64,000 nt of DNA from positions 1 to 64,000 of the IMG/VR virus record IMGVR_UViG_3300037010_001702. One strand, given 5' to 3'. The stretch's first letter is position 1. Each line of letters starts with the position of its first letter. Of this stretch, positions 2,189 to 28,924 are shown in pieces. The notes under the pieces are model-generated. The model was given only the letters and a program-made list of their open reading frames with translations. It searched no databases and was not told the origin of the DNA. The DNA is from a virus. A program made the translations under genes and the position numbers.

Positions 2189-5100
2189 TTACTTCTTGCT
2201 CAATTCATTTTCAAGGAGTGCAACTCTAGCATCCAGTGCCTTTATAGCTTCAATAAGAACAGGGACTATTTTAGAGTAGTCAACTGTCTTGTAAACATCG
2301 CCATCAATTTGAACAGAGTCAGTTACTATTTCTGGCATTACAGCTTCGACTTGGTCTGCAAGAATACCATAGTCATGTTTACCAGCCTTGAATGAAGTGT
2401 GGGCAATTCCCGACTTCCAGTCAAATGTACCACCGTCAAGCTGTTTAAGAATACTAATTGGGTTAGCAATAACTTTGAAGTTTTCCTTAAGGCGTGGGTC
2501 AGAGTAAGCAGTTACATTACCGCCAGCCACCATATTACCAGATGGATCTGAGTACCAAGACCATGCTGCGCGATTCCACCCGCCTAGACCAAAATAGCCA
2601 TCAGCTCTAATACCCATCTTAACAGCGTAAGCATCATTCCAGAAAGTCATACCAGCAAGATTTGAATCACCTGTACCACTAGCCCTGACAATCACTGAAC
2701 CTCTAGTAGCACCACCATCTTGAGACATTGCCATGCTAGTTGTTACACCAAACATAGGATTTGTCTGTTGTGTTGCTGAGAAGTAGGTAGCATTTCCTAC
2801 CGTCAAGTTATTAGCAGTACCAGTTGCGTTGGTAAGAACAACAGCTGAAGGCGTGCCAAGGTTTGGGGTTACAAGCGTTGGAGATGTAGATAGAACAACA
2901 GCTCCGGTACCAGTTGAAGAACCAAATCCTGCAGACCATGTACCACTCGTAATTGTTCCTAGCGTTGTAATTTGGGATTGATTTGCAAGAACGCTAATAG
3001 TGTTACCAGAGATACCAACACCGGTTCCAGCTGAAAGAACAGCAGCGCTGAACTGTGCCCACGTAACAGGAGATGTATCTACCGTAGTTACTGTTGATGT
3101 AACTATCCAGCCTGTATTTGACTGAGATGTTCCGCTTGTTACAAGAACAGCAGCACCATTGAACTCATTAATTGGTGTTGATGCATCCATATCAGCTGCC
3201 CGAGACCAAGCTGAAGTGCTTACAACGTAGATACCATTTTCAGAAGATGTAGTTTGGTTCTTTACGAGAACTCTTGTGCCAACTGTAACCGCGATGCCAT
3301 CAATAGTTTGCGTTCCACTACGTGTGATGTTAGTGGTAGTAGCAACTAAGACCGTGTTCTTCCAGGTCAATCCTGCGGCTACAGCGTCAACGTAGTTCTT
3401 ATTAGCTACTTGTGTTCCCAATGTAGGAGTGTCGGCTACTGTAATGCTTTGACCGGTAGGAATGGTAATTGAACCAGTCATTACCCCGCCACTCAGCGAC
3501 AGCTTAGACGTGTCACTAGGGTGAACGTGATCAGCGCGAGCAACTTCAAAATCATAACCAACAGCAGCAGTTCCATCCATTAGTGGGACAGTGCTTGAAA
3601 GTCCTGTAATCGAGTTGAATGAAACACCCGTAGCAATGCCAATGCTTGGCGCTACAAGAAGAGGACCATTGTTGAATACAAGTTGACCAGTTCCAGTCTC
3701 ATCAGAGATAACACCGGCGAGTTGCGCTGAAGTTGTAGATGCAAACTGCGCTAGAGGACCACTTGTTACTGCGGTGGCTGGATCGCTGGGGTGAACGTGA
3801 TCTTGTCTAGCGACAAGAGTGGATGTTCCAACAGTAGCTGCACCAGGGACCAGCGGTGTTGCAACTGCAAGGCCAGTAATAGAGTTGAATGAGGTACCAG
3901 TAGCAACGCCGATATTAGGAGTTACAAGGATTGCTCCAGCTATTGTTGGTGAAGTGTCCATTACAAACTTGGAACCAGTACCAGTTTGAGATGCTACAGA
4001 CGTAGCGTTTCCAACAGAGGTAATTGGACCGGTTAGGTTTGCATTAGTCGTGACTGTAGAAGCATTACCAGTTAAGTTACCGGTGAATGTAGTCGCGTAA
4101 ACATTCTGCCAAACAGCAGAAGGCGTACCAATCGTGTAGCTGTTGGTAGCAGATGGAACCATTGATCCACCAATGCTACCACCGCTTGAGCTAGCTGGTG
4201 TATATCCAAGCGCTGTGATAATATCGGCTGAAGAAATAGTAGTTCCGATAGTAATACGGCCCTTTGCATCAACAGTAACTTTCGTATATGTTCCTGCCGT
4301 AACACCAGTGTTACCGAGAGTTGCAGTAAGAATAACGTCAGACGTACCATCAATGTTTGGAGTTGATCCAAGAAGATCACCAGAAAGATTTATCTTTCTA
4401 GCATTCTTCCAGCTGGTGGCGGTGCTTGCATTACCGATAAGATCAGCAGTAACAATACCAGCAGCGAAACTTCCAGCTGCATCTCTAGCAACCAATGTTG
4501 ATCCCACGTTCGCAGCTGTCGCATTAGAGGTAATGGTTGGATTGCCAGAAACACCATCAGGGTTAGTAATTGAAATACCAAGACCGCTTACGGCTAGACT
4601 TATCGTGTTAAAGCTGTTAGTGCCAATATTAGCAAGTAAACCAGTAGAGCTTACACTTGAAATACTTGTTAGATTTCCATTTAACGGTTGAGCATCGGTG
4701 ATTCCGTAACCATTAAGAGTTGTTGGCTTACCATCTATAGATGTCCACGCAAGAGTTGAAGTACCTGCAGTGACGCGACCGTATGTATCAACCGTAATGC
4801 CTGCATAATTTCCAGCAGCAACTCCAGTAGTTGCAAGGTCAATGTTGTCAGCATTAACTACGATGCGGGAGGTTGAAGCTGTGCCAATGTCAAACGTGTG
4901 ACCAGTAAGAGTAAGACCAGCTCCTGCAGTGAAGTCACCTGGACGGCTAAAGACCGTGAAAATAAGTGCGGTAACATCAACGGTGATAGTGCCAGTGGTT
5001 GTTAAAACCCATGAGCTGTTACCAGAAGATGTACCAACAGCAACGTAGATAAGCGCGCCAGTTTTAATCTCAACTACTGGCTGATTGTTAGAATCAAGGT

Positions 5101-6247
5101 TGTCAAAGTCAGTGGCTCTAGCCCAAGCGTCACTTGCTGCAGTGTAAATACCATTTGCAGCTGCATTAGATTGGTCCTTTACAAGAACTCTATCACCTGC
5201 AGTCAAGACGATGTCATCTATAGTTTGAAGACCGCTTAGGACGATAGGTCCAGTTGTTGCAACTCTAACGGATTTCTGAAGTGAAAGACCAGCAGCAACG
5301 TTATCAACGTAAAGCTTAGTAGCAAGGTGAGATGCGATTGTTGGAGGAGAACCAGTGACTGGATTGTTAAATGTCCAATTGCCTGTGATCGTTTCATTAC
5401 CCGCGACACGAGCTAAAACAGTGCCGTCAAGAATTTGATTTTCAGATATAGCGAGAGATGCTTGGTACTGAGTAACAGAATCAACTGAAATTCTAGCACT
5501 AGAAACAGAACCGCTTATCATTTGAGAAGCATCTATTCCAATAGGAACATTTACTGCATGAGTAACTCTACCCTTCACATCTATGTCGAGCTGTGGAACC
5601 GAAGAAGCTATTCCATAGGATGCGGCAGTAACACCAGAGTTAGCTAGTGTCAAGGCGATAGAAGTGGTTCCAAAACCAGTTGCATCGCCAGAAACGGCTA
5701 TCTGTTGGTTCTGGGTAATATAAGTAGTGGTATCCAGCGCCCACGAATTTACTCCTATCTTCTTCAAAAAGCCAGCTGTATCGCTAATAGCAGCAATAGC
5801 CGTAAGATCAGCATCAAGTGGCTGTGCATCAGTTATGTTGTAGCCACCAAGGGTAGTTGGAGTAGAACCACCTATAACTCTGCCAAGTGAATCGACCTTT
5901 ACTTTCGTGTAGAATGTACCTTGCACCGGATCAATTGCTGGCGTAAATGCAGCAAGTCCGGACACTGGGTCAATAGGTGATACTGGAGGAAGGATGTTGC
6001 GAATTTCTTCAGGCGTAATGCTGTTCTGGTTAAGCTGTAATGTCCAGTTAGTTGGATTATAGATGTTTCCGGTGTCTGCTCCATTATAGGAGTAGACACC
6101 ATTAAGTGCAGGGTTTGGGTTGCCGATAAGGTTGAAGAGCTCACCCTTAACTGGAACGTGCGGGGCAGATGGAAAAGCACTGCCACTCGCTACAATCAGA
6201 GTGGAAATCTCTGAACCTTCTACCAAATTGATGCCGGAAAATTGCAT
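2189..6247 (-). CDS. Large tail-fibre protein with S74 chaperone domain
   Basis: This 1352-residue fibre protein has shaft repeats such as GGYNITDAQPL and NGYGITDAQPL. It carries two copies of a module of about 120 residues with the signature YVD..AAGL..K, then GDRVLVK(D/N)Q and NGIY (nucleotides about 4950-5330 and 3040-3415). Two further copies lie in the plus-strand fibres at 54 and 57 kb. The C-terminus has a second S74 chaperone (AYSDPRLKENFKVIANP, then a YSKIVPVLIEAIKALDARV helix). A late-type octamer CATAAATA (minus strand, 6271-6278) and an AGGAG ribosome site precede the ATG. The 1363-2187 gene follows directly. It is probably a main long or side tail fibre. Confidence 0.92.
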   Translation of the reverse strand: MQFSGINLVEGSEISTLIVASGSAFPSAPHVPVKGELFNLIGNPNPALNGVYSYNGADTGNIYNPTNWTLQLNQNSITPEEIRNILPPVSPIDPVSGLAAFTPAIDPVQGTFYTKVKVDSLGRVIGGSTPTTLGGYNITDAQPLDADLTAIAAISDTAGFLKKIGVNSWALDTTTYITQNQQIAVSGDATGFGTTSIALTLANSGVTAASYGIASSVPQLDIDVKGRVTHAVNVPIGIDASQMISGSVSSARISVDSVTQYQASLAISENQILDGTVLARVAGNETITGNWTFNNPVTGSPPTIASHLATKLYVDNVAAGLSLQKSVRVATTGPIVLSGLQTIDDIVLTAGDRVLVKDQSNAAANGIYTAASDAWARATDFDNLDSNNQPVVEIKTGALIYVAVGTSSGNSSWVLTTTGTITVDVTALIFTVFSRPGDFTAGAGLTLTGHTFDIGTASTSRIVVNADNIDLATTGVAAGNYAGITVDTYGRVTAGTSTLAWTSIDGKPTTLNGYGITDAQPLNGNLTSISSVSSTGLLANIGTNSFNTISLAVSGLGISITNPDGVSGNPTITSNATAANVGSTLVARDAAGSFAAGIVTADLIGNASTATSWKNARKINLSGDLLGSTPNIDGTSDVILTATLGNTGVTAGTYTKVTVDAKGRITIGTTISSADIITALGYTPASSSGGSIGGSMVPSATNSYTIGTPSAVWQNVYATTFTGNLTGNASTVTTNANLTGPITSVGNATSVASQTGTGSKFVMDTSPTIAGAILVTPNIGVATGTSFNSITGLAVATPLVPGAATVGTSTLVARQDHVHPSDPATAVTSGPLAQFASTTSAQLAGVISDETGTGQLVFNNGPLLVAPSIGIATGVSFNSITGLSSTVPLMDGTAAVGYDFEVARADHVHPSDTSKLSLSGGVMTGSITIPTGQSITVADTPTLGTQVANKNYVDAVAAGLTWKNTVLVATTTNITRSGTQTIDGIAVTVGTRVLVKNQTTSSENGIYVVSTSAWSRAADMDASTPINEFNGAAVLVTSGTSQSNTGWIVTSTVTTVDTSPVTWAQFSAAVLSAGTGVGISGNTISVLANQSQITTLGTITSGTWSAGFGSSTGTGAVVLSTSPTLVTPNLGTPSAVVLTNATGTANNLTVGNATYFSATQQTNPMFGVTTSMAMSQDGGATRGSVIVRASGTGDSNLAGMTFWNDAYAVKMGIRADGYFGLGGWNRAAWSWYSDPSGNMVAGGNVTAYSDPRLKENFKVIANPISILKQLDGGTFDWKSGIAHTSFKAGKHDYGILADQVEAVMPEIVTDSVQIDGDVYKTVDYSKIVPVLIEAIKALDARVALLENELSKK

Positions 6248-20668: not shown

Positions 20669-21643
20669 ATGAAACTACTTGTACTTGCAAACGCGCACCA
20701 TGAACTTATCAAGGAAGCTACGGTTGGAACTGCCAGCGTAGCCCTAGCCATGGAGAAGATGATCAAGTTTATCCAACGAAAGATGGATGAAAAGCTCATC
20801 AGGATTCCTGGAATTGAGCATTTTCACAATTCCACTGACAGCGGGTATGGTATTCGCTATGTATTTTCAGGTACAACGCGCTGTCTTCGCTTCAACTGGG
20901 GTTCTGAAGCTTCAGCTGGTAAGACTAGTGAGATTCACTCCATCGACATCTTCAATGGTAAGTCTGCTGATCCAACGTTCAGCATTCACTGCAAGGGTAT
21001 TTCCTTCGCGCAATCACTGCCAGCTCTTGTAGCAATTCTTCATTCTCCAACAATTGGTCATGTTCGTGCCTTCCCAGTTAGCCCTGTTGAAGCTTTGTCT
21101 GAGTCAGTTATCATGGAAGTTGCGCGGGATGCATTCTCGCCTGAAGCTGCTCTCAATGACTTCCTCGGAAAACTCGCAGCAGGCAAGACATTCACCCGTT
21201 CTGAATTCATTGGTTCCTACCACATTATCAATGCCGGTATCTTTGACACAGTCTTCAGGGACTTCAATGACAGGTTTCAAATTGATGCCAGGAGAGTTTC
21301 GCTAAAGCCAGGTTCGAAGATCGACTCTCTTAAGGACTCTATTCTTTCAAAGGCAGGAGTCATCACTGTAACCCAAGGTGGTACAGATGAATCCTTCATG
21401 AAGACCAAGCAGGAAGAGCAAGTTGAAAAGGATACCGCTGAACGCATTCCATTTGGTGACACCCTTGAACACTTGGAAGGTCTCGTAACAGGTACCATAA
21501 AGGGGGCATTCAACGCTCTCTTTGTTGCTGGTAAGGGTGGATCGTTTTCAGGTTCAACTCTTGTAAATGTTATGGTTAATAATTCATCAATAAATTTAAA
21601 TGATAATCATCAAACCGAAAACAAGATTGCCAATCATAATTAA
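20669..21643 (+). CDS. P-loop ATPase, N-terminal half fused to N-intein (fractured gene)
   Basis: A 324-residue product. Residues 1-291 are the N-extein of an AAA-type ATPase and stop at FVAGKGG, the first half of a Walker A loop. Residues 292-324 begin SFSGSTLVNVMVNN, matching the intein block A pattern (C/S-F-S-G-D-T-L-V), and end after only 33 residues. The rest of the Walker A motif (TGKT) is at residue 138 of the 22657 product. Neither half has a complete P-loop, so ATPase activity would need protein trans-splicing. The region before residue 291 matches no domain I know. The unbroken paralogue at 27959 shows the same loop uninterrupted (GEGGLGKT). Confidence 0.88.
   Translation: MKLLVLANAHHELIKEATVGTASVALAMEKMIKFIQRKMDEKLIRIPGIEHFHNSTDSGYGIRYVFSGTTRCLRFNWGSEASAGKTSEIHSIDIFNGKSADPTFSIHCKGISFAQSLPALVAILHSPTIGHVRAFPVSPVEALSESVIMEVARDAFSPEAALNDFLGKLAAGKTFTRSEFIGSYHIINAGIFDTVFRDFNDRFQIDARRVSLKPGSKIDSLKDSILSKAGVITVTQGGTDESFMKTKQEEQVEKDTAERIPFGDTLEHLEGLVTGTIKGAFNALFVAGKGGSFSGSTLVNVMVNNSSINLNDNHQTENKIANHN
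21542..21640 (+). other. N-intein fragment (33 residues, Ser1)
   Basis: This is the coding segment for the split N-intein: S1-F-S-G-S-T-L-V as block A, then a polar tail. It is far shorter than the usual N-intein of about 100 residues. Block B (SNH) has moved to the C-terminal partner, which is the atypical split arrangement. The sequence becomes markedly more AT-rich from this point to 23067. Confidence 0.85.
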
Positions 21644-22655
21644 AACGATAGAAGAAATTATTCCTCATCTTAAACGAGTATCAAAAAGCTGGCGATCTTT
21701 AACACCACAAGTTAAAGATAGCCTTTTATCACTTCTTTCAAGAAATCCAATTTATTCAGGAATGAATCTATTTCATCTAGACTTACGTAAAGATGTTTTA
21801 CACATGCGATCCGGGACATTTTCTAGTGATCAGTATAAAAATATATTTGGATGGAGTGAAGAAGAAATAAGTTCATTAATAAAAAGTAAGGATAATATAA
21901 TAAAAAATTCTTCTGGAGGTTTAACTCCGTGTATGAAAGAATTTTGGATTAAACATCACGGATTATCTGAAAAAGATGCTATTAAAAAAGTATCAGAAAT
22001 CCAAACTAAACTAAGTAAAAGAAAAAAGAAAACTGTTTTTAACAATCCAATTTCTTTACAATATTATTTGCAAAGGGGTATTAATAAAGATGAAGCAATT
22101 AGGGCACAAAGTGAAGTTCAAAAGAAAAGAAGAAATAACTGTATCGAGTATTGGTTAAACAAGGGATATTCAAAGGAATATGCGAAAAAGGAAATATCTA
22201 ATTTACAAAAACTTAGAAGTAAATTAAGTATAGAATATTGGTTACACAGAGGATACACATTAGAACAAGCACAAAAAGAAGCCTATCTTGCACAAAAAGC
22301 TCAGATGCCATCAAAAGTTTCAAAAATATCCAAAAAATTTTTTACCGAATTATTATTAGAGCTTAAAAAATATGGTTATTTAGAAAATGAATTCAAGTAT
22401 GGTGATAACGAAGAATGCATTTATATTAGTTCAAAAAGACGCATATATTTAGATTTTTATCATCAATTAACTAAGAAGGTAATAGAATTTGATGGAAAAT
22501 ATTGGCATTCTGAAAAAACCATAGAAGATGAAAAAAGAGATAAAATGCTAAAAGAATTAGGTTATTCGGTTTTAAGAATTCCAGAAACATATGATAATGA
22601 ACTTTGGAATAAATATCTTATTCAGGCTGTTGAATTCATCGTAAAGGAAAATTAA
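21600..22655 (+). CDS. Vsr-like (EDxHD) homing endonuclease between the gene halves
   Basis: A free-standing frame of up to 351 residues, overlapping the end of the N-half by 44 bases in another frame. The C-terminal domain has IEFDGKYWH and then KRDKMLKELGYSVLRIPE (E296, D298, H303, D314), the E-D-x-H-D nuclease pattern of Vsr-like homing endonucleases. Residues about 120-245 hold four copies of a DNA-binding-type repeat with Y-W-L-x-x-G-Y-x-x-E-x-A. This family is known to sit between the halves of split-intein fractured phage genes. The start is uncertain because no Shine-Dalgarno precedes 21600. It would spread the insertion into intein-free ATPase genes. Confidence 0.88.
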   Translation: MIIIKPKTRLPIIIKTIEEIIPHLKRVSKSWRSLTPQVKDSLLSLLSRNPIYSGMNLFHLDLRKDVLHMRSGTFSSDQYKNIFGWSEEEISSLIKSKDNIIKNSSGGLTPCMKEFWIKHHGLSEKDAIKKVSEIQTKLSKRKKKTVFNNPISLQYYLQRGINKDEAIRAQSEVQKKRRNNCIEYWLNKGYSKEYAKKEISNLQKLRSKLSIEYWLHRGYTLEQAQKEAYLAQKAQMPSKVSKISKKFFTELLLELKKYGYLENEFKYGDNEECIYISSKRRIYLDFYHQLTKKVIEFDGKYWHSEKTIEDEKRDKMLKELGYSVLRIPETYDNELWNKYLIQAVEFIVKEN

Positions 22656-22656
22656 T

Positions 22657-23067
22657 ATGCAGTATATACAAGTCAATATGTATTGGCTAGAGCAGTATGT
22701 TAAAGACACATATAAGATTGAAGAACTAGAAATTGGGCACTTGTACAAAATTTCTGATATAATGATTGAAACCCCAAATGGGTTTAAACCTACTATTGGA
22801 TTTATAAAGAAAAAGGGAAATCAAGCTTTTGTTGAATTTGAGTCAGGTATCAAGCATGAGTGTCTTTCCAATCATATGTATATTGCCGAAAATGGAAAAG
22901 CACATTTTGTTTATAATATGGTGCCAGGAGATAAAATTCGTACAAGAAATGGTATTGATATTGTTAAAGCTGTAACAATTACCGAAAATGAGATGTTTGC
23001 TTATGACTTATCTGTTGATTCTAATGATCAAATTTTTGTAACAGCAGATGGTATTCAAAGCCATAAT
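22657..23067 (+). other. C-intein fragment (137 residues)
   Basis: This is the first 137 codons of the C-half. It contains block B (CLSNHMYI, H73), VPGDKI, a block F-like stretch (MFAYDLSVD) and block G (GIQSHN) with the penultimate His and last Asn needed for C-terminal cleavage. The next residue, Thr138, is the +1 nucleophile. The His usual in block F is absent (SNDQIF). Confidence 0.9.
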
Positions 23068-23709
23068 ACAGGTAAGACACAGACTGTTGAAAAGGTTCTT
23101 CATAATCATGGTTTGTCAGATGGTAACGGTTACTTCAAGAATACTGGTACGGCTTCCGCACTCGGTATCTACTCGCTTCTCTACAAGCACCGCGACGGCA
23201 TTCTTTTGTTTGATGACTCCGATGGAGCTTTGGCCGATCAAGATGGTCGTAACCTTATCAAAGCAGCTACTGATACCAAGAAGCACCGCAAGATTGCTTG
23301 GAACAAAAAGTCTGCAGGTATGTATGATCCAGAACATGAAGATGCAGAAGAGTATGCAGAAGATGCGGACAAGTTGCCACGGCATTTTGAATTCACTGGG
23401 CGCATCATCTTTATTTCTAACTTGCCATTAAGCAAGCTTGATCCAGATGGTGCGCTTCGAACTCGAGCCTTCGTCATCAACATCGATCCAACGGATGAAG
23501 AGCTTTACGAGCACATGGAAAAGATTCTTCACGAAATTAAACTCGAAGATGGCCTTTCACTCTCAAATGAAGAACGTGAGAATGTTCTAACAGTTGTCAA
23601 GAAGTCAAAGCGCAAGGGAGATGTATCTCTTCGTAAGCTTGTTCGAGCTCTTAACCTTGCAGCATCTGGTGCGCCCAACTGGGAGCGCCTGGTTTCCCTA
23701 TATGCATGA
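22657..23709 (+). CDS. C-intein fused to P-loop ATPase C-terminal half (fractured gene)
   Basis: A 350-residue product with an AAAGGA ribosome site 7 bases before its ATG. Residues 1-137 are the C-intein. From T138 it is the ATPase: TGKTQTVEKVL completes Walker A, GILLFDDSDGAL is Walker B, and FTGRIIFISNLPLSKLD and RTRAFVINID are sensor and arginine-finger-type motifs. These line up with the paralogue at 27959 (FTGGVIFISNFPLYKID, RSRAICVDLS). Joined by splicing, the two halves would give about 504 residues. The native role is unknown; such phage AAA proteins are often next to replication genes. Confidence 0.9.
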   Translation: MQYIQVNMYWLEQYVKDTYKIEELEIGHLYKISDIMIETPNGFKPTIGFIKKKGNQAFVEFESGIKHECLSNHMYIAENGKAHFVYNMVPGDKIRTRNGIDIVKAVTITENEMFAYDLSVDSNDQIFVTADGIQSHNTGKTQTVEKVLHNHGLSDGNGYFKNTGTASALGIYSLLYKHRDGILLFDDSDGALADQDGRNLIKAATDTKKHRKIAWNKKSAGMYDPEHEDAEEYAEDADKLPRHFEFTGRIIFISNLPLSKLDPDGALRTRAFVINIDPTDEELYEHMEKILHEIKLEDGLSLSNEERENVLTVVKKSKRKGDVSLRKLVRALNLAASGAPNWERLVSLYA

Positions 23710-23764: not shown

Positions 23765-24595
23765 ATGGAAAAGAAATATGTAAGAGCATCAAACAGAAAA
23801 CATCACATAGTTTATAAAACGACATGTATAGAAACAAATGCATTCTATATAGGCATGCACAGCACTGATAATCTAAATGATGGTTATCTGGGAAGTGGGG
23901 TTAGGCTTAGAAAATCGATTAGAAAATATGGTGAAGCTGCACATAAGACTGAAATCTTATTCGAATTAGAAAATAGACAGGCTGCATCAGATAAAGAAAG
24001 AGAACTTATTACTGCTGAACTAAGAAAGGATCCAAAGTGTATGAACTGCGGACCTGGTGGTGAAGGCTATTATGATAGACCAGCTACTAAAGAAGAAACG
24101 TCAGCTAAACTTTCTAAAGCTTCTAAGCAATATGTTCGCACTAAAGAGTGGTATGAAAAAGTAGTAGCTACTCGAAAAGCAAACAACAGTTATACTCATA
24201 CCCCAGAAGCAAGAGAAAAGATTAGAGCTTCTCTAACCGGTAAAACTTTAACTGAAGAGCACAAGAAGAAAATATCAGAAGGTGGTACTGGGCAGAAGAG
24301 AACAGAAGAAACATGTTTGAATATCTCTAAGTCTCTAAAGGGAAAGAAGTTTAAATCTGGGGTAGATAGAAAACCTGTATCAGAAGAAGCTAAAGAGAAT
24401 ATTAGACAAGATCGCATTGGTAAAAAGCACTCTGAAGAAGCCAAATCTAATATGCGAAAACCTCATAAAAAGCCAAAAACCCGCCAATGTACTGTAGATG
24501 GTATAAATATCTATCAATCAGTAAGTCAAATGGTTAAAGCTTTAGGTTCTGGTCAAAATAGTCGGAGATCACCAAATTTTAGGTGCATAATATGA
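23765..24595 (+). CDS. GIY-YIG homing endonuclease with NUMOD repeats
   Basis: A 276-residue protein. The GIY-YIG core is HHIVYKTTC (IVY 15-17) and FYIGMHST (YIG 28-30), with RKSIRKYGEAAHKTEIL after it. The middle holds several NUMOD3-type helices (TPEAREKIRASLTG, LTEEHKKKISEG, and others). The end is a NUMOD1-like helix-turn-helix region (VDGINIYQSVSQMVKALG). It is free-standing, just downstream of the fractured ATPase, with its own -10-like CTATAAT. It probably targets a nearby site in related phages lacking it. Confidence 0.9.
   Translation: MEKKYVRASNRKHHIVYKTTCIETNAFYIGMHSTDNLNDGYLGSGVRLRKSIRKYGEAAHKTEILFELENRQAASDKERELITAELRKDPKCMNCGPGGEGYYDRPATKEETSAKLSKASKQYVRTKEWYEKVVATRKANNSYTHTPEAREKIRASLTGKTLTEEHKKKISEGGTGQKRTEETCLNISKSLKGKKFKSGVDRKPVSEEAKENIRQDRIGKKHSEEAKSNMRKPHKKPKTRQCTVDGINIYQSVSQMVKALGSGQNSRRSPNFRCII
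24502..24509 (+). promoter_or_regulatory. Exact T4-type late promoter TATAAATA
   Basis: TATAAATA lies in the end of the GIY-YIG gene, about 80 bases before two genes whose products begin with capsid-targeting-like peptides. Late expression would fit. The octamer alone could be chance. Confidence 0.4.
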
Positions 24596-24897
24596 AAACT
24601 TCATTCAAACAGTTCGTTCAAGAAGGTCCTATACTTGATAAGGTGAAGAAATTTTTCAAGAAGAAAGAAGTTATTCCTACTGACCCACGAATGAAGCCTG
24701 CTTTCATTCAAGCAGGTGGTGAAAAGAAGTATGACATCATGGGATGGCAAATCGGATGGTTTTGTTGTCAAGCAGATCCATCAGGAGATCCAAAAGAAAT
24801 TTTCAACAAGATGTATTATGGTGGCGGAAGCCCTATCTCATTTGATGAGAAGTCTTTTTACGCTGGATTTAAAACTTGCAGAGAGATGGCATCCTAA
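24592..24897 (+). CDS. Unknown protein with capsid-targeting-like start
   Basis: A 101-residue protein starting MKTSFKQFVQEGP; I prefer this ATG to one three codons earlier. The first residues resemble T4 internal-protein targeting peptides (MKTYQEFIAEA) with a VQE-G junction. After a Lys-rich stretch (KVKKFFKKKE) comes GWQIGWFCCQADPSG. No domain is recognised. It overlaps the GIY-YIG gene by 4 bases and precedes a nucleotidyltransferase with the same type of start, so both may be head proteins. Confidence 0.6.
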   Translation: MKTSFKQFVQEGPILDKVKKFFKKKEVIPTDPRMKPAFIQAGGEKKYDIMGWQIGWFCCQADPSGDPKEIFNKMYYGGGSPISFDEKSFYAGFKTCREMAS

Positions 24898-24898
24898 A

Positions 24899-25930
24899 AT
24901 GATTTCCTTCAAGCAATTTATTACCGAAATGGGCGGTTGGTCTAAGACTATTACGCAAGACGTAAAGCTTACCCCAGCTACAGCAAAGAAAGCATTAGCT
25001 AATATGCCTAAATTCGAAAAAGAGTTTAATGCTTATTTGAAGACGCACGATTATGCTCCTATTAAAATTGGTAAGCCAATCGGTTCAACTGCATATCTTG
25101 AAAGAGATTTGAAGGAGCATCCAGATAAAGAATATGGAGACATTGATATTATCTTTTCAATGCCACGTATTCAAGGGACAACTGAGAGCAAGAATCAATC
25201 CCTATATCGTCAAATGGTTATCTCATTCATTAAGGATGAAAAACCTTCTTACATTTACGATGGTGGTTCTGAAAATGGAACTAATATTACCGTCTCAGTA
25301 GGAGATGATAAGTGGGCGCAAGTAGATTTAGTAGCAGCATTTACTGAGACTGAGGATTGGACTACCCATCGTATGACCCCCGAGTATGGATTAAAGGGAG
25401 CTCTAATGGGATTCCTTTATGCTTCATTAAGTGAGTTATTAAATGTAAGTATTGGCACTTCTGGTGTTCAAGTAAAACATATTGATGGTGAAATGGTTCC
25501 ATTTAAGAAAATAAAGGTTGATAGCGTTAATACTATTACAACTGATATTGGACATTTTGCTTTAGATACTTTCAATTACCTATACAATCGCACTCATGCT
25601 ACTGGAAGCAAACCGAAAATTGCTCCACTACTTAATTCAAACCCCGGTATGAAGAGAGGAGATATTAAATTCGACGATTTAGCAAATGCTGTTCGCGGAA
25701 TGGGCAAGTCTTTTGAGCTTAATAATATGTGGGGCCAGGGCGATTTGAAACATATTAAAGACTACTCTGATTTTATATCGAAAGTCAAGGCATCCTATAT
25801 TGCTAAGGCAGAAGATGCAGCAAATGCATCGAAATTTGAGAAAGCAGCTACTGTTGATGCGAAGAATAGAGCTGAAGCTACAAAAGAGATGCTTAGATCT
25901 AAGTCAAAAGAACTCATAGCAAAACTGTAA
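24899..25930 (+). CDS. Pol-beta-fold nucleotidyltransferase, capsid-targeting-like start
   Basis: A 343-residue protein beginning MISFKQFITEMGGW at 24899, one base after the upstream stop. The frame is open further upstream, but that part overlaps the previous gene. It has G62-S63 (PIGSTAYLERD), D81-I-D83 (YGDIDIIFSMP) and D143 (WAQVDLVAAF), a full nucleotidyltransferase triad. The first seven residues are the same as those of the 6348 protein, with an ITE cleavage-type site. Substrate unknown. Candidates by family are protein AMPylation/UMPylation, nucleotide second-messenger synthesis or RNA tailing. I infer injection with the DNA. Confidence 0.75.
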   Translation: MISFKQFITEMGGWSKTITQDVKLTPATAKKALANMPKFEKEFNAYLKTHDYAPIKIGKPIGSTAYLERDLKEHPDKEYGDIDIIFSMPRIQGTTESKNQSLYRQMVISFIKDEKPSYIYDGGSENGTNITVSVGDDKWAQVDLVAAFTETEDWTTHRMTPEYGLKGALMGFLYASLSELLNVSIGTSGVQVKHIDGEMVPFKKIKVDSVNTITTDIGHFALDTFNYLYNRTHATGSKPKIAPLLNSNPGMKRGDIKFDDLANAVRGMGKSFELNNMWGQGDLKHIKDYSDFISKVKASYIAKAEDAANASKFEKAATVDAKNRAEATKEMLRSKSKELIAKL

Positions 25931-27930: not shown

Positions 27931-27958
27931 CAGTTAATTAACTTAGAAAGTTTATCAG

Positions 27959-28924
27959 ATGTCCCATGTTGCTACTCTCTCCTTTCAGACCTCCACAAAC
28001 AAGTGGGTGGCCTCCTTCAACGGAAAGATTCTGGCTTCCTCTCCTAACAAGGACTATGTGATAGGTAATATCCGCTCCGGTCGTTGCACTAAAGCCGTAG
28101 CTGCGGGTGTAACTGAAGTTCGTGAGGTTGGCGAAGCTACTGTGAATGTTACAACTGGAAAGACCGAGAAGGTTGATCGTTTTTCGATCAATGAACGTTT
28201 CGACTTTATGACCGACTTTGTTAACATGGTTGCTGACCACACCTGTGCTTCAGTTATCGTAACTGGTGAAGGTGGTCTTGGAAAAACTTTCACAGTCAAC
28301 AAAGCCCTTCAAAATGCCGGTCTCCAAAATACTGCTGATCTGGTCGGGTTCGGATCTGACTCCCTTTTGAATCCTTCTGTGTCTGCGAAGATTTACTCAG
28401 TAGTCAAAGGCTACTCGACTGCTAAGGGTCTCTACCGCACTCTCTACGAAAACCGTAATCGTATTGTGATCTTCGATGACTGTGATTCTATTCTCCGTGA
28501 CCCTGTTGCCCTGAACCTTTTGAAAGGTGCTCTCGATTCCTATGATCGTCGCATCATTTCTTGGAATGCCGAGTCTTTCGGTGACGATGATCTTCCTCGC
28601 TCGTTTGAATTCACTGGTGGTGTGATCTTCATCTCGAATTTCCCACTCTACAAAATCGATCAAGCTATCCGGTCTCGTGCAATATGTGTTGATTTGTCCA
28701 TGACGACTGCTCAGAAGATTGAACGCATGGGAGCTATCATCAAGGGGGATGACTTCTTGCCTGAATACGAATTGAACACCAAGAAAATGGCTCTTGCTTT
28801 CCTCGACAAGATGAAAGATGAAGCCACGGATTTGAATCTGCGGACTTTGATTGCTGTTACGAAGGTTGCAGGTCGTGGAGATAACTGGGAACGGCGGGCA
28901 GAATACCTGTTGAATGCTGCATAA
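27959..28924 (+). CDS. AAA-type P-loop ATPase, unbroken paralogue of the fractured gene
   Basis: A 321-residue protein. Walker A is GEGGLGKT (103-110), Walker B is IVIFDDCDS, the sensor region is FTGGVIFISNFPLYKID, and RSRAICVDLS is an arginine-finger-type motif. It lines up with the spliced product of 20669 plus 22657 over the ATPase domain but is shorter at the N-terminus. It has no intein, so it is the natural intein-free comparison. Its own strong early promoter suggests early expression. The role is unknown; it could be a helicase loader or remodelling ATPase. Confidence 0.85.
   Translation: MSHVATLSFQTSTNKWVASFNGKILASSPNKDYVIGNIRSGRCTKAVAAGVTEVREVGEATVNVTTGKTEKVDRFSINERFDFMTDFVNMVADHTCASVIVTGEGGLGKTFTVNKALQNAGLQNTADLVGFGSDSLLNPSVSAKIYSVVKGYSTAKGLYRTLYENRNRIVIFDDCDSILRDPVALNLLKGALDSYDRRIISWNAESFGDDDLPRSFEFTGGVIFISNFPLYKIDQAIRSRAICVDLSMTTAQKIERMGAIIKGDDFLPEYELNTKKMALAFLDKMKDEATDLNLRTLIAVTKVAGRGDNWERRAEYLLNAA

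Follow-up and report, generated by a model that had tools for sequence, protein, structure and literature searches.

Phage genes fractured by split inteins, with a homing endonuclease gene lying between the halves, have been described (Dassa et al., 2009, as outlined in passages of PMC6892783 and PMC11766414). Fractured genes and atypically split inteins are already known as kinds. The locus considered here is in IMG/VR virus record IMGVR_UViG_3300037010_001702, the 239,441-bp record of a T4-like virus (jumbo phage); bases 1–64,000 of this record constitute the window. At positions 20669–23709 of the window, an ATPase gene of the NrdC.10 family appears to have been fractured inside its Walker A motif by a mobile split-intein element, to be restored by trans-splicing, and to owe the spread of the element to an intervening homing endonuclease. 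We place the probability of this reading at about 0.9. The locus shares with the Dassa-type genes a halved phage gene, an intein fragment on each half and an endonuclease gene in between. It departs from them in its NrdC.10 host, in the break within Walker A and in the position of the intein split, which follows motif N1 and leaves a short N-intein (IntN), rather than falling at the usual endonuclease site. Most natural split inteins, unlike this one, are divided at approximately 100/40 residues (PMC10189870).

The locus consists of three plus-strand open reading frames (ORFs). The N-half (20669–21643, 324 residues) begins with the N-extein (20669..21541), the first 291 residues of a NrdC.10-like P-loop ATPase, and this ends in FVAGKGG, which includes the first half of Walker A. 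FVAGKGG continues directly into SFSGSTLVNVMVNN..., the start of IntN (21542..21643), which has 33 residues and a stop codon (SFSGSTLVNVMVNNSSINLNDNHQTENKIANHN); this Ser1 fragment, SFSGSTLVNVMV..., has the intein block A pattern. The endonuclease (EN) gene (21600..22655, 351 residues) has its own frame and start codon, the latter within the last codons of the N-half. One base past the EN stop the C-half starts (22657–23709, 350 residues), with a 137-residue C-intein (IntC, 22657..23067) followed by the C-extein (23068..23709), 213 residues from Thr+1 (TGKTQTVEKV...). The three ORFs are in different frames, none of which stays open throughout the insert. The whole insert (21542..23067, 1,526 bp) has a GC content of 0.284 vs 0.46 and 0.45 in the flanking exteins, and third-codon-position GC is 0.18–0.23 in the insert vs 0.44 and 0.41 in the flanks. 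When the exteins are joined without the insert, a protein of 504 residues results, with Walker A (GKGGTGKT) restored and a Walker B-like sequence, ILLFDDSD. An earlier note, made from the DNA sequence alone, had described halves of a P-loop ATPase, with SFSGSTLV after FVAGKGG and GIQSHN before TGKTQTVEKV, around an AT-rich insert; its coordinates, the joined length and the base composition all hold.

The identity of the host gene is based on sequence comparison. The C-half after TGKT matches phrog_1250, the T4 NrdC.10 family, over the C-terminal ATPase domain at E=2e-27 and, by tblastn, also matches 1,181 phage records, mainly from T4-like phages. The T4 nrdC.10 product is the same type of protein and has GAAGIGKT and VLLIDDVD at the equivalent positions. 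By these similarities the host gene is a T4 NrdC.10-family, AAA+-like P-loop ATPase; no function of NrdC.10 is known to us. The N-half found no match in the phage records searched, a result probably explained by fast divergence of its N-terminal domain. No relative was found in the bacterial and archaeal genomes searched.

Of 80 homologues in IMG/VR, about 75 carry the gene as one ORF in which Walker A is unbroken. The insert, which lies in frame in the window gene, is absent from these uninterrupted homologues (L009–L011 and approximately 70 more). The nearest of them, L009, is 79% identical overall and is also exactly 504 residues long. In a blastn comparison of the window with L009, similarity stops at 21540 and restarts at 23068, and the insertion point is considered firm, and exact to the codon, because the similarity breaks and resumes at the predicted site and the two proteins are equal in length. 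Amino acid identity to L009 is 78% in the N-extein and 83% in the C-extein, and both show low nonsynonymous divergence (dN) against saturated or near-saturated synonymous divergence (dS).

That the insert encodes an intein is indicated by motifs, profiles and a predicted fold. The C-half scores 21.5 bits against TIGR01443 (cut-off 15.6). IntC has His73 in motif N3, a C2 motif YDLSVDSNDQIF and a C1 motif GIQSHN followed by Thr, i.e. the His-Asn before a Cys, Ser or Thr at +1 that is characteristic of class 1 inteins. The junction residues Ser1 (codon at 21542), His136, Asn137 and Thr+1 (codon at 23068) are all intact; Ser1 is by inspection the motif N1 nucleophile, in SFSGSTLV, and His73 is invariant in the intein alignment. 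An AlphaFold model of IntC, for which five related C-inteins were used, has a mean predicted confidence (pLDDT) of 84 and a predicted HINT fold. All top Foldseek matches of the model in the PDB are inteins, with gp41-1 first and VidaL second. With the IntC alignment used as a profile, VidaL is found in the PDB at 2.2e-7, and both Cat and gp41-1 at 1.6e-6. In the aligned inteins (ATPase, TerL, VidaL, Cat, gp41-1) motif N3 has the form C/T-x-x-x-H, not the common T-x-x-H. The only cysteine of IntC, Cys69, is in this motif and not at a junction. Since endonucleases encoded in introns are common in T4-like phages, the insert might instead be looked at as an RNA intron that splices itself and carries an endonuclease ORF; yet an Rfam search returned neither a group I nor a group II intron at E<=1, and the intein profile match and HINT fold of the C-half are in frame with the extein. 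The RNA intron is rejected on these grounds.

With IntN of at most 33 residues and an IntC of 137 on separate chains, and with Ser1 and Thr+1 as in cysteine-less, Ser1-type inteins, the ATPase intein is, by its sequence, an atypically (S1) split intein. The last 14 residues of the 33-residue IntN come from reading the EN start in a different frame, and the functional IntN is therefore probably the first 13–19 residues. VidaL (PDB 6vgv; IntN of 16 residues, PMC13014065), the best profile match, is also an S1 atypically split intein, but it is cysteine-dependent, in contrast to the Ser1/Thr+1 ATPase intein. The PolB16 OarG intein (PMC10189870) shares Ser1, a hydroxyl residue at +1, the S1 split (IntN of 15 residues in PolB16) and, in the wild type, a non-junction cysteine in N3. 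It differs in its PolB host, its 168-residue IntC, Ser instead of Thr at +1, and the presence of the N3 Thr. AceL-TerL, GOS-TerL and Cat are likewise atypically split phage inteins, but their split is at S2, after the first helix, their +1 residue is Cys and their host is the terminase. The nearest sequence relatives of IntC in the phage records are contiguous TerL inteins of the Vibrio phages Kuja and VAP7 (L100, L101), with 35% identity at 4e-9 for Kuja. These are also located in Walker A (SGK/TT, the slash marking the break), but they are contiguous, have no endonuclease and reside in another host protein. A search of IMG/VR with the C-intein alone matched only the identical contigs of the window type.

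Fractured relatives were found by patterns of the junction codons, which added eight contigs to L012 and L047. The earlier note knew of no other example in this ATPase family, a view that no longer stands: the gene is fractured in two other phage lineages, in one at the same site and in the other at a second site, GK/T. In all of the relatives described below IntN has 13–20 residues, with its stop codon at the same place, and IntC has approximately 137–146. L012 has the same site (GRGG/TGKT) and a 13-residue IntN (CLSADTAIVATQD). L113, L114 and L115 are split in the same way, again with a 13-residue IntN, and lack an endonuclease; 144 bp of non-coding sequence is all that separates the two open frames. 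In L047, L122 and L123 the split is three residues downstream (GLGK/THTV), the IntNs start with Cys1 and have 13–20 residues, and endonucleases are present.

These relatives also bear on the possibility that a single contiguous intein with an internal endonuclease was broken by sequencing or assembly errors. The source is a metagenomic assembly, and many contiguous inteins contain endonuclease domains. However, two further IMG/VR contigs carry the window type with 100% identity (they are probably from the same virus), the EN gene and the C-half have start codons of their own, no ORF spans the insert, and the intein is split at the same position in other lineages, with a gap of only 144 bp in L113, L114 and L115. 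An assembly or frameshift artefact is rejected in view of these fractured relatives and is given next to no weight.

Comparison of L012 with L113, which has no endonuclease, gives a dN/dS of 0.12 for IntC, the same as for the C-extein. By this measure the C-intein of the relatives is under purifying selection, and the intein is maintained even without an endonuclease. A second comparison concerns L122 and L123, which have the same C-intein and whose identity is 98.3% in the 2.5 kb upstream and 99.6% in the 3.3 kb downstream. The stretch that differs (2544–4043 in L122) extends from IntN codon 1 to the last EN codons; the IntNs are unlike (CQIGTTELLGKFE, CLDPNSELAGVFGE), as are the endonucleases. 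Five synonymous differences are clustered within 24 nt just before the junction, as expected, since co-conversion during homing would leave such changes. Perhaps, in this ATPase family, IntN travels together with the endonuclease next to it as a single mobile cassette whose homing target is the P-loop codons. The C-intein would remain in place when one such cassette replaces another, and IntN-IntC pairs would thereby re-assort in nature; we offer this tentatively, at somewhat less than even odds. L122 also has two minus-strand ORFs (4133–5305) between the endonuclease and the C-half; a fractured gene can therefore have passenger genes in its gap.

The free-standing gene between the halves encodes a putative homing endonuclease. 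Its C-terminal domain (residues 284–327) is of the DUF559 restriction-endonuclease-like type (PF04480, E=6.5e-7, above the gathering score). The earlier proposal of a Vsr-like, EDxHD-type enzyme is upheld as to an endonuclease gene at this place, while the family is less certain: DUF559 is the significant match, and sequence and profile searches of the PDB found nothing significant, including no EDxHD enzyme such as I-Bth0305I. Endonuclease genes occupy the same position in L012, L047, L122 and L123. Those of L047 and L122 are weakly DUF559/MTES_1575-like at the C-terminal end. That of L012 has a different C-terminal domain, GIY-YIG-like by inspection, which found no match in a Pfam search.

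The N-terminal part of EN consists of approximately 30-residue repeats, xYWLxxGYSxExAxxxxxxxQ (window 21900–22320), which possibly bind DNA. The tandem repeats are also present in EN-type proteins of L012, L047, L122, L123, L137 and L138; they match no Pfam family, and the proteins that carry them differ in their catalytic ends. Pseudomonas phage MIJ3 has similar stretches, and so does a Lak phage, in which they lie just 3′ of a RecA/UvsX-like gene whose end resembles the N-part of an intein.

We infer splicing, nuclease activity and the nuclease target from sequence, and the proposed mechanism is as follows. The two half-proteins would be made separately, with the P-loop divided between two chains until splicing. 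The HINT fold of the large IntC, incomplete by itself, would be completed by the short Ser1 IntN. Class 1 trans-splicing via oxyesters would then proceed by an N-O acyl shift at Ser1, transesterification to Thr+1 and cyclization of Asn137, and GKGG would be joined to TGKT to restore Walker A. As this joint would be made only by splicing, ATPase activity should depend on it. The endonuclease would probably cut uninterrupted alleles at the conserved P-loop codons, and repair would spread the element.

Several points weigh against this scheme. The search of both intein parts proposed in the earlier note succeeded for 22657–23067, which matches TIGR01443, but IntN alone matches no profile. The NX His is not confidently placed: in Ser1 inteins this His is typically preceded by Arg or Lys (PMC10189870), and the only such pattern here is K65-H66, near N3. 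Tree support for the nearest intein is weak, and the AlphaFold model of EN (pLDDT 54) is too poor for a fold search. The window also encodes, at 27947–28921, a second, uninterrupted NrdC.10-like ATPase (VTGEGGLGKTFTV), which might cover the ATPase function. Position N3:7 of the window IntC is Leu70, where the relatives have Ser or Ala and most inteins Thr, and in PolB16 mutation of the N3 Thr impairs splicing (PMC10189870).

Leu70 and the paralogue, together with Ser1 where the fractured relatives have Cys1 and the overlap of the IntN tail with another frame, could also indicate a degenerate intein, i.e. halves that no longer splice and are either dead or form a non-covalent heterodimer while the paralogue does the work. 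This we regard as unlikely, given that Ser1, His136, Asn137, Thr+1 and His73 are all kept, that the exteins remain 78–83% identical to L009 with low dN, that selection is purifying on the relatives' IntC, and that an ATPase would not usually have its Walker A divided between two chains. Trans-splicing of the fractured gene remains the favoured explanation, and the fractured-gene arrangement first suspected from the sequence is upheld by the profile, structural and comparative tests.

Directly 3′ of the C-half is a GIY-YIG/NUMOD3-type homing endonuclease gene (23765–24595). It was rejected as part of the intein element and is independent of it, since L009 has it too, downstream of its uninterrupted allele. 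An ORF at 24716–25930 is nucleotidyltransferase-like by inspection; in T4, nrdC.11, which adjoins nrdC.10, is annotated as a nucleotidyltransferase.

A TIGR01443 search of the whole record found five C-inteins, all in fractured genes, the ATPase included. The other four (L110, L111, L112) are an RnlA-like RNA ligase (70445–73139 of the record), split within the KxDGS motif (KRDG/S), the gap holding an oppositely oriented endonuclease-like gene; TerL (172860–175350), split EVL/CEFI with a 37-residue IntN and a gap that contains no endonuclease ORF; a UvsW-like helicase (185096–187938), split in the DECH box (DE/CH) with a TnsA-like/NUMOD3 endonuclease in the gap; and NrdA (189691–193256), split NL/CTEI with a GIY-YIG endonuclease. 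Endonuclease genes of different types are therefore found in three of these four gaps. The TerL intein groups with Cat in the tree.

A 2026 paper names PolB16 as the sole natural cysteine-less atypically split intein; it considers IntNs near 15 residues desirable, and 15 residues is the record it reports (PMC13014065). The NrdC.10 host, the Walker A site, Ser1/Thr+1 junctions at an S1 split outside PolB, and, in relatives, an exchangeable cassette of IntN and endonuclease are undescribed in the later open-access papers. The ATPase intein has cysteine-free junctions, and the natural IntNs of its Cys1 relatives, at 13–14 residues, are below the 15-residue record. One gene occurs in empty, occupied, endonuclease-free and cassette-swapped forms, which offer a direct test of split-intein origin and homing. 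Five fractured genes in one phage genome, replication and packaging enzymes included, is a striking load. The locus appears to add an ATPase family to the proteins known to host split inteins, one in which a break in the nucleotide-binding loop would tie enzyme activity to trans-splicing.
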